Below, piece by piece: positions 7,737 through 10,820 of a stretch of 35,129 nt of DNA; position 1 is the first letter of the stretch; each line of letters starts with the position of its first letter. Position numbers and translations under genes: made by a program. The notes under the pieces are model-generated. The model made no database searches. It was given only the letters and a program-made list of their open reading frames with translations, and was not told the DNA's origin. This DNA is from Cytophagaceae bacterium (GTDB lineage: Bacteria; Bacteroidota; Bacteroidia; Cytophagales; Spirosomataceae), in contig CANKVC010000003.1 of the NCBI GenBank assembly GCA_947486835.1, positions 1 to 35,129 on the forward strand, read 5' to 3'.

Positions 7737-8801
7737 ATGAAAACACCTAGTTTATTTGCACACTATTGGTCCGAAAATGAAACATTGACCACTTTCCAAG
7801 AGGTGATGAATTGGGATATTAATCCCATCATCATTGAAATTATTCAAACCGAAATTACGCATCAACTCAATTCAGAATTCATCCAACATACTTTTCCTAA
7901 CTTCAATTGGGAATCCAATAGGTTTACAGAAAAATGGGGTTCAGCCATGCAAAGCCTGTTGATCAATGTAACCCTTCCTGAAAAAATTTGGCTGGATTGG
8001 ATTCAAGATTTAACAAACAAGACCATTGGGACAACAGACGAGGCTAAACCAGCTTCATTAGAAGAAGTCTACCCGTCTTTCGACGAATTGTTAAATGCTG
8101 AAGTGTATTATAGCTCACCAGCTGATTCATTAGAGGACATGAAAGAGGATGACGAGGTGATAGATGAGGTTATTGAGATTAAGGAGGAAGTCATAATCAA
8201 TATCGAAGAAGAAGAAGAAGAAGAAGAAGAAGAAGAAGAAGAAGAAGATAAGGATGAAGAGGAAGATGAGGAAAGTGATTTAAGGATAGATCAAGAATTA
8301 ACTAGCAGTAATGACAATGAATCTATCGAGATAGATTCCATCTTATTCGCTGAAGCTATCGAGGATAATGTGGATGAGAAAGATCAAGAATTTGTCCAAG
8401 AAAATATCGACATTGAATTTTCGGTATTAAATTTAGAAATTGGCTCCAAAGCCCCTTCAGAGAAAAAAATATTGGATATATTGGGTGATTCTCCTGAAGA
8501 AAAGGTTTTTGAGACGCTCCAAGCTAATCAAGACAATTCCCTAAAAGATCGAATTCATACCGAAATGACTTCGTCCTTAGCCGAAACCCTACCCCTTTTT
8601 CAAAAGATTAATTTCATTCAAAATTTATTTGAAGGAGATTCAACATACTTGGATCAAGTCATTCAATTCATAGATCATGAGGCGAATAAATCCACCGATT
8701 GGAAATCAATTTTACAAACAAAATATGCTGCATTCCAACGAGTCGACAATCAAGAATTATGGAATGAACTCTATGAACTCATCGAAAGGAAATTCAGTTA
8801 A
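7737..8801 (+). CDS. Conserved hypothetical protein with acidic linker (poly-Glu)
   Basis: Long ORF directly following rnc; low-complexity E/D linker; folded-looking C-terminus (LPLFQKINFIQNLFEGDSTYLDQVIQFID...LWNELYELIERKFS). Confidence 0.8.
   Translation: MKTPSLFAHYWSENETLTTFQEVMNWDINPIIIEIIQTEITHQLNSEFIQHTFPNFNWESNRFTEKWGSAMQSLLINVTLPEKIWLDWIQDLTNKTIGTTDEAKPASLEEVYPSFDELLNAEVYYSSPADSLEDMKEDDEVIDEVIEIKEEVIINIEEEEEEEEEEEEEEDKDEEEDEESDLRIDQELTSSNDNESIEIDSILFAEAIEDNVDEKDQEFVQENIDIEFSVLNLEIGSKAPSEKKILDILGDSPEEKVFETLQANQDNSLKDRIHTEMTSSLAETLPLFQKINFIQNLFEGDSTYLDQVIQFIDHEANKSTDWKSILQTKYAAFQRVDNQELWNELYELIERKFS
8205..8246 (+). repeat. (GAA)14 perfect trinucleotide microsatellite
   Basis: 42 nt of uninterrupted GAA encoding 14 Glu. 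Confidence 0.97.
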
Positions 8802-8846
8802 GTGATCTAAATGATCAGTTTTTGACCAAAGTTTCAGGAATAAACG

Positions 8847-8879
8847 AAGTAGTTTCATCTAAAAATGAAACTACTTTTT
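8847..8879 (+). promoter_or_regulatory. Perfect 12-bp hairpin plus T-run overlapping the start codon of the downstream gene
   Basis: AAGTAGTTTCAT (8847-8858)-CTAAAA-ATGAAACTACTT (8865-8876) followed by TTT; the ATG at 8865 is the start codon. Confidence 0.75.
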
Positions 8880-10820
8880 GTTTTAATTTTATTACTAGCT
8901 TTTAAATCCACTACAGCCCAGCAGTCAGATATGGTTGCCGATGAGGAAAAGCAATCCAATTTTAATTATTTCCTACAAAATCCGCTTCAAATTAACCAAG
9001 TAACTGCGGATGAGCTTTCGGCTTTAGGAATTCTTACTTCTACCCAAATAGGAAACTTTATAGCACATAGGACTCAGATTCATCACTTTGAATCCATCTA
9101 CGAACTTCAAACAATTCATGGTTGGGACCTAGCCCTATTAAAAAAGATAAAACCATTTTTACGTTGTGATAAAATAAATAAAAAATGGTATGAATTTTTG
9201 GAGTCGAAACACCAAATAGTCATCCGAAACGAAAAAACCTTAGAAGAAAAAAAAGGATTTAGCCCTAAAGATTCCAGAAGTAAAACGAGGTATTTGGGTA
9301 ATTCCTGGGGCCAATTAGCTCGATATCGAGGCCAATTAAACAATAACTTACGCGTAGGTGCTTTAATCCAAAAGGATGCAGGAGAGGTAAATTACCTTGA
9401 TTTTAAAAGCATTTTTATCGAAATAAAGCCAAACCGTTGGGTCGATAAAATAATCATTGGAGATTTCATCAATCAATGGGGTCAAGGCCTAGTCCAATCA
9501 GGTGGTTTTTCATTAGGCAAAAGTTTTGAAAGCATCAAAGCCACACAAAAATTTCACTTGGGCGCTATTCCATATACATCTAGCGGAGAATCCTCTTTCT
9601 ATCGAGGATTAAATGTCCAATTTCATGTGAATTCATTTAATTTTCAAGCCTATAGTTCGATTAGAAATTTGGACGCTAGCCTGAGTTCGGATAGCACTAC
9701 AAATTCTAAAAAAATCAATTCATGGATTGAGGACGGATACCACAGAACATCCAGCGAATTATCTCATCATTCAAATGTTCAAGAAACCGCTTGGGGTGGA
9801 AGTATGCAATGGACTCACAAACCCACCCATTTGGCTATTCAATTTAATCTAGCCCATACACTATTTTCTTTAGAAAAATCAAAATCACTTTTGGCCTACA
9901 AGATGAATTCCTGGTCCGGAAACCAAGTTGAAAATTATTCCATTAGCTTTCAAGCCCCCTTTCATAATATTCATTTCACAGGCGAATTTGCCTGGATGCC
10001 TGAAAATCATTTTTCCCTAATTCAAGGCGGAGCCTTTGCCGTTTCTAAAAAAACAGATTTGTCCTACTTATGCAGATATTATGCAAAATCCTATTTCAGC
10101 CCTAAAGCCAAAGGAATTGGAGAAAGTGCAGAAACAAATAATGAAATGGGTTTATTTGTTGGGAATCAAATCACTTTTAACAAAAGAAATAAACTATCTA
10201 ACTACCTCGATATCTTTAAGTTCCCAGGATTAAAATATGAAGTATCCCAACCCAATTCTTGGGGATGGGAAATGCTGAGCCGATACCAATGGGAAAAAAG
10301 AGGAAAATATACGTTTTTTGGCCAACTAAAATGGACGTCTAAACAAAATGATATTTCCCGGATTAACAAGGAACTTTCTCGAAATCATTTAATACAAACG
10401 AGCTTAGATTTACATCAGTTTAAGACCAAGAAATTGGATTTCCATACGCGCATTATGACATGCTTATTGATAGGTGCAAACACAAACGAAACAGGTTTAC
10501 TCGTCTTACAAGATGTTAAATACCAAATACGGTCGCTGGGGATTCAAGCAAGGATAGGGTTTATTCGTTCATCCTCCTATGATTCAAGACTATATGCGTA
10601 TGAAGTGGGTGTACCGCTATCATTTTCACTCCCCGCCTATTATGGACATGGTTTCAGAAATTGCCTCGTACTGGATTATAAATGGACAAAAAATTCCATA
10701 TTTTCCCTAAAAATAGGAAGGACAAACTATATGGATCGGGATGAAATTGGCTCAGGACTAGAGCTAATCAGCGGCTCACACAAAACGGATGTGACTTTTC
10801 AGTGCCAACTAATCATTTAG
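8865..10820 (+). CDS. Helix-hairpin-helix domain protein with probable C-terminal outer-membrane beta-barrel
   Basis: Signal peptide (MKLLFVLILLLAFKSTTAQ); HhH-like INQVTADELSALGILTSTQIGNFIAHR...FESIYELQTIHGWDLALLKKIKPFL; remainder rich in alternating aromatic strands. Confidence 0.75.
   Translation: MKLLFVLILLLAFKSTTAQQSDMVADEEKQSNFNYFLQNPLQINQVTADELSALGILTSTQIGNFIAHRTQIHHFESIYELQTIHGWDLALLKKIKPFLRCDKINKKWYEFLESKHQIVIRNEKTLEEKKGFSPKDSRSKTRYLGNSWGQLARYRGQLNNNLRVGALIQKDAGEVNYLDFKSIFIEIKPNRWVDKIIIGDFINQWGQGLVQSGGFSLGKSFESIKATQKFHLGAIPYTSSGESSFYRGLNVQFHVNSFNFQAYSSIRNLDASLSSDSTTNSKKINSWIEDGYHRTSSELSHHSNVQETAWGGSMQWTHKPTHLAIQFNLAHTLFSLEKSKSLLAYKMNSWSGNQVENYSISFQAPFHNIHFTGEFAWMPENHFSLIQGGAFAVSKKTDLSYLCRYYAKSYFSPKAKGIGESAETNNEMGLFVGNQITFNKRNKLSNYLDIFKFPGLKYEVSQPNSWGWEMLSRYQWEKRGKYTFFGQLKWTSKQNDISRINKELSRNHLIQTSLDLHQFKTKKLDFHTRIMTCLLIGANTNETGLLVLQDVKYQIRSLGIQARIGFIRSSSYDSRLYAYEVGVPLSFSLPAYYGHGFRNCLVLDYKWTKNSIFSLKIGRTNYMDRDEIGSGLELISGSHKTDVTFQCQLII

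Follow-up and report, generated by a model that had tools for sequence, protein, structure and literature searches.

The closest described systems are found in bacteriophage T4, where genes e (lysozyme), soc, 49, and I-TevI carry start-region hairpins (PMC3014915). The T4 start region is paired in long transcripts initiated upstream, and in gene e promoters located just upstream of the start yield transcripts devoid of the 5′ part of the structure; the paired elements are the Shine-Dalgarno sequence and/or the AUG, and the regulation is proven (PMC3014915). Another related case is the sigG gene of B. subtilis, which stands behind another operon and for which a hairpin of 20+ bp, unable to form in the gene's own transcript, was proposed as a block of read-through RNA; the sigG mRNA itself contains a second hairpin at the ribosome-binding site, and its GTG start lowers the output (PMC5942855). 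A third point of comparison is the ordinary intrinsic terminator, that is, a stem followed by a T-rich tract.

In Bacteroidota the 30S subunit binds without Shine-Dalgarno help, and how these bacteria prevent the translation of read-through RNA is, to our knowledge, little studied. In the window, i.e., the whole stretch of 35,129 nucleotides analysed here, a hairpin lies over the start codon of an outer-membrane HhH/beta-barrel gene; the nearest genomes belong to the genus Aquirufa, freshwater Spirosomataceae-type bacteria. As in T4, the Aquirufa start region is predicted to be paired in long upstream-initiated transcripts, and a promoter just upstream of the start, giving transcripts without the 5′ part of the structure, is proposed likewise; unlike T4, the phylum is devoid of Shine-Dalgarno sequences, the start codon itself lies in the stem in most clades, and the promoter is a predicted one. 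With sigG the locus shares the position behind another operon, the weak start codons (in most Aquirufa clades), and, as far as the proposed model holds, a hairpin that blocks read-through RNA and is lost from the own transcript, but here there is one short hairpin, with arms covarying across the genus. In the window's clade the stem and the following T-rich tract resemble an intrinsic terminator, whereas the T-run is not conserved in the genus, the stem is AT-rich, and the start codon is placed in the 3′ arm. The start-codon hairpin can be considered a variant of known control, with silencing of read-through RNA as its most likely mechanism.

The Gene and Its Neighbourhood

The gene occupies positions 8865–10820 of the forward strand and encodes a product of 651 aa with a ComEA-like helix-hairpin-helix (HhH) domain at the N-terminus and a large outer-membrane beta-barrel besides. 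Since the N-terminus, MKLLFVLILLLAF..., resembles a signal peptide, the ATG at 8865 is taken as the start. The AlphaFold model of the barrel has a mean pLDDT of 85.6, and a PDB fold search with the product retrieved only generic large barrels of the TonB-transporter type (TM ~0.4). Transformation in Riemerella strictly requires another HhH protein (PMC8459023), and tight control of a protein that apparently combines a ComEA-type DNA-binding domain with a barrel would be in keeping with participation in DNA uptake, although this is no more than a guess.

The gene is preceded on this strand by fabF, by rnc, and then by a gene without known function (7737–8801), which is the last of the acpP-fabF-rnc-side series and a possible source of read-through; 63 nt separate its end from the start of the HhH/beta-barrel gene. 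As the start hairpin is the only terminator-like site listed on the forward strand between rnc and the HhH/beta-barrel gene, read-through is likely.

The 7737–8801 gene contains a run of GAA triplets (8204–8250) encoding poly-Glu; relatives differ in the length of this gene and show little conservation in its central part. In six Aquirufa genomes (L016, L017, L018, L019, L034, and L035) the HhH/beta-barrel orthologue has a common in-frame TGA at codon ~540 (..GAY TGG GGA TGA CTR..), after which ~107 codons are conserved in frame with dN/dS of ~0.07–0.16, similar to the values upstream of the TGA where dS was computable. This looks like stop-codon read-through or other recoding, and sequencing error is an unlikely source.

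Hairpin over the Start Codon

The initial annotation of this DNA described a perfect 12-bp terminator-like hairpin containing the start codon, and the structure was found exactly there and proved stronger than claimed. On the forward strand it extends over 8847–8876 and consists of the 5′ arm AAGTAGTTTCAT (8847–8858), the loop CTAAAA (8859–8864), and the 3′ arm ATGAAACTACTT (8865–8876), the latter being the start codon together with codons 2–4, so that all 12 pairs are perfect. It is followed by the T-rich tract TTTGTTTTAATTTT (8877–8890), which also represents signal-peptide codons and which, in the window's clade, might serve as a U-tract. The RNA of 8795–8900, the segment which the annotation had proposed for folding, gave −25.2 kcal/mol (z = −3.8, with 1 of 200 shuffles equally good), and the hairpin region folded alone gave −14.4 kcal/mol (z = −5.5).

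As a background, 400 kb were sampled from each of two Aquirufa genomes, giving ~620 automatically called starts, where perfect stems touching the start codon were at most 8 bp long with the exception of this gene's orthologue and ORF L124. The 15-bp hairpin over the called start of L124 was dismissed, the real start being located further downstream. The start-codon hairpin is thus far beyond chance.

Conservation and Covariation of the Arms in Aquirufa

The HhH/beta-barrel orthologue is present in 37 of the 38 Aquirufa genomes examined, and in all 37 leaders the start is covered or touched by a hairpin, of which there are six sequence types. Type A has the arms GTAGTTTCAT/ATGAAACTAC and an ATG start; type B, TTTCAAGG/CCTTGAAA and TTG; type C, TTTCACTT/AAGTGAAA and GTG (TTG and one mismatch in L035); type D, GCGCATC-GCTAGCTT/AAGCTAAC-GATGCGC and ATG; type F, GAGCT-GTTTCAAG/CTTGAAAC-(A/G)GCTC and TTG; and in type E, with the arms CTAGTTT/AAACTAG, the stem ends 3 nt before a GTG start.

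The summed energy of pairing in cis for six clade representatives was −82.0 kcal/mol, the best of 720 arm assignments (mean −47.6), and in all 300 random draws of other representatives the cis pairing ranked 1 or 2. Covariation extends to the start codon (ATG, TTG, or GTG): its first base changes together with the opposite base of the 5′ arm, and 26 of the 28 distinct rows have it paired, by T-A, A-T/G-T, and C-G types, with G-U tolerated as in RNA; this number refers to the register common to types A, B, C, and F and was obtained by a start-anchored script, since the MAFFT leader alignment left the start codons of the clades out of register. The inner core TTTCA/TGAAA is nearly invariant among the Aquirufa hairpins and alone proves nothing, since it could reflect, at least in part, two independent constraints, namely, the promoter and the NTG-AAA start. 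When flanking pairs only were considered in four clades, 320 out of 500 draws gave the cis combination first place among 24, a result that is weaker but agrees with the others.

Outside clade D, single-sequence folding gave z values between −2.5 and −6.9. All clade A rows have the same twelve start nucleotides, synonymous sites included, even where the proteins share only 50–54% identity, and the core AGTTTCAT-N-ATGAAACT marks no gene but the HhH/beta-barrel one in the 13 genomes carrying it. The hairpin exists and its arms co-evolve. Because own arms pair better than swapped ones and the start base covaries with its partner, these comparisons indicate that arm pairing is under selection and that the hairpin is real and selected. 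The 5′ arm, on whose presence in relatives the initial annotation had made its idea depend, is kept genus-wide and covaries with the start region, which supports the claim that a transcript coming from the fabF-rnc-7737 side folds a hairpin hiding the start codon.

In the sister genus an apparent hairpin ACCAAAGC...GCTTTGGT is located 4 nt before the ATG and was not counted as support; the fold value obtained there (z ~0) refers to a 41-nt segment which cuts this hairpin off. Five Spirosoma-like genomes (L157, L161, L162, L163, and L173) have a different leader hairpin of the ATGCC...GGCAT type ~20–50 nt before the start, with matching changes at the outer pairs. In other genera (L086, L090, L041/L046/L093, L165, and L166) hairpins that belong to the upstream gene and resemble terminators reach into or border on the orthologue start.

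Promoter-Like Element and Conserved Leader Blocks

Clade-weighted conservation revealed two blocks in the leader, one at 0–24 from the upstream stop (TAA.TGATTTTCATTATCAGTTTT) and another at 50–58, (C/G)TA(G/A)TTTC(A/G), separated by a spacer of unconserved sequence and nearly constant length. In the window the first block (8799–8823, forward strand) comprises the upstream stop TAA and then TGATC-TAAAT-GATCA-GTTTTT, a putative weak hairpin or palindromic protein-binding site. The weaker hairpin announced by the initial annotation at 8803–8822 is present here as described, with TGATC at 8803–8807, TAAAT, GATCA at 8813–8817, and then GTTTTT. This block is conserved in Aquirufa and the sister genus and is almost exclusive to this locus; a genus-wide regulon operator was considered and rejected, as the exact sequence occurs here and only rarely elsewhere. 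The TGATTTTCATTATCAGTTTT-like block may be a putative activator site.

The second block contains TAnnTTC, in the window as TAGTTTCA (8850–8857, forward strand), a possible −7 promoter element inside the 5′ arm. Counted from the upstream stop, TAnnTTC starts exactly at +51 in all Aquirufa leaders but L008 (+52). In the sister genus (L036), where the rnc neighbourhood is kept, TAGCTTTG stands at exactly +51 and matches TAnnTTTG, the Bacteroidota −7 promoter consensus (PMC6847099, PMC9723704). TAnnTTTG occurs upstream of Aquirufa genes 85 times versus 17 expected, and, taken together with the sister-genus match, this makes block 51–58 probably a −7 element, degenerate in Aquirufa. Several features tell against this reading. 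The Aquirufa version at the locus, TAnnTTC[A/G], departs from the consensus and was not enriched in Aquirufa upstream regions (19 versus 17 expected). G at the third position of the element is nearly absent from F. johnsoniae promoters (PMC6847099) and is found in 13 of 94 Aquirufa boxes. As to the −33 element, no conserved TTTG or TTG was detected at the right spacing in the leaders; F. johnsoniae promoters, too, generally have only a weak −33 element (PMC6847099).

Since the distance from the −7 element to the transcription start is 4–5 nt (PMC6847099), transcription would begin at ~8862–8863, in the loop, and yield an mRNA that has hardly any leader and lacks the 5′ arm. With such a start, which the initial annotation had named as speaking against its idea and which the promoter-like element within the 5′ arm predicts downstream of 8858, the hairpin would silence read-through RNA rather than gate the gene's own mRNA. 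About one-tenth of the Aquirufa TAnnTTTG boxes sit 10–16 nt before a called ATG, so short leaders probably occur in this genus. Near-leaderless mRNAs are a minority in flavobacteria (5.5%; PMC9723704) and would suit TTG/GTG starts poorly.

Proposed Silencing of Read-Through RNA

According to the explanation that we favour, and to which we give about an even chance, read-through RNA is silenced by the hairpin while the gene's own transcript starts in the loop without the 5′ arm. RNA running on from acpP-fabF-rnc-7737 would fold into the hairpin during its emergence; pairing would then engage the start codon together with the surrounding bases, 30S subunits could not bind, and the read-through message would stay untranslated. 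The gene's own promoter, with its −7 element (TAnnTT[T/C]) inside the 5′ arm, would give a transcript beginning in the loop, with a leader of a few nucleotides and without the 5′ arm, and so translatable. In the window's clade the stem and the T-rich signal-peptide codons may also terminate some of the read-through RNA. The promoter, the transcription start, the read-through, and the silencing are the parts of this scheme that we infer, and no Aquirufa transcriptome, RNA, or expression data were found in the literature.

In long RNA the predicted probability of an unpaired start was 0.00–0.04 in 10 of 11 Aquirufa representatives (0.66 in L021), and predicted start accessibility rose in most clades when the RNA began at +63. 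The gain was modest in the window's clade (0.18 in short versus 0.04 in long RNA) and not consistent in clade E, whose hairpin is placed immediately before the start (L021, 0.66 in long versus 0.45 in short RNA). In F. johnsoniae structure in the start region lowers translation (PMC6847099). Start occlusion is the conserved theme of the hairpin.

The starts are TTG or GTG in most Aquirufa clades, and weak start codons seem to be a long-standing trait of the gene and fit one kept at low output. Among 19 orthologues in other genera (L156–L175), 13 have only TTG/GTG as a canonical start before the signal peptide. A more far-reaching and tentative extension, which we consider possible but clearly less probable than the silencing itself, is a regulated start-codon switch in a phylum devoid of Shine-Dalgarno sequences, in which AUG, UUG, and GUG would evolve to pair with the promoter-bearing arm, so that promoter, lock, and coding are united in one sequence.

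Alternative Explanations

The main rival is a hairpin acting within the gene's own mRNA, with transcription starting upstream or only by co-transcription with rnc, which would damp or switch translation, for example under the influence of temperature, a protein, or RNase III of the neighbouring rnc. The arm covariation also fits this explanation, the weak TTG/GTG starts of most clades and of 13 of 19 distant relatives are expected at low output, block 8799–8823 is conserved upstream, and the sigG leader holds a second hairpin of this kind (PMC5942855). However, stem energies of about −8 to −19 kcal/mol, calculated for 37 °C and stronger still at 20 °C, would leave the mRNA nearly off without a visible switch partner, loop length and sequence vary by clade, which speaks against a conserved ligand or protein site, and a search of 8500–9200 against Rfam gave no family match at E up to 1 (thermometers, riboswitches, and leaders). 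The suggestion of the initial annotation that the fold is opened by temperature or protein gained no support from the static folding used here, and we regard the own-mRNA hairpin as rather unlikely.

A further explanation is that the upstream operon has an intrinsic terminator whose overlap with the downstream start is accidental, the signal-peptide codons serving as its U-tract. The initial annotation had also read the hairpin in this manner, and the reading holds in part: in clade A, to which the window belongs, the 12-bp stem is followed by 6–7 T in 8 nt, the same count is found in clades D and F, and inspection by eye showed terminator-like hairpins overlapping or abutting the orthologue start in other genera (L086, L090, L165, and L166). 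In clades B, C, and E and in the sister genus, however, the corresponding 8 nt hold only 2–4 T, and the hairpin persists in B, C, and E; in addition, the window stem contains few G-C pairs. Since the T-run is missing in three of the six types that keep the hairpin, the structure is not mainly a terminator, and the window's clade may have acquired termination as a local extra; an accidental overlap is improbable.

Still less probable is a symmetry acting at the DNA level, with a dimeric repressor bound to an operator that covers promoter and start. The symmetric arms, the preservation of TAnnTTC even where it is partly unpaired (clades D and E), and the fixed spacing to the conserved palindromic block 8799–8823 are consistent with such a site, but half-site sequence and spacing differ between clades (loops of ~4 to 10 nt), and the recurrent G-U pairs would be mismatches in DNA. 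A neutral quasi-palindrome kept matched by replication template switching would account for near-perfect inverted repeats with clade-specific sequences, but is the least credible explanation in view of the exact genus-wide position over the start of one gene, the frozen synonymous codons of clade A, and the fact that in no other reliably called case among ~620 starts does the stem exceed 8 bp.

Biological Meaning

In summary, silencing of read-through RNA remains the preferred explanation. The preservation of the hairpin in spite of changed letters and a changed start codon suggests that it blocks synthesis of the protein from run-on messages of the neighbouring genes. The finding also carries a caution, because a hairpin that covers a start and looks like a terminator can serve to lock translation, even in cases where it is incapable of ending transcription. 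With compensatory variants spread over 37 genomes, and with covariation that includes the start codon itself, the locus is a small test system provided by nature.
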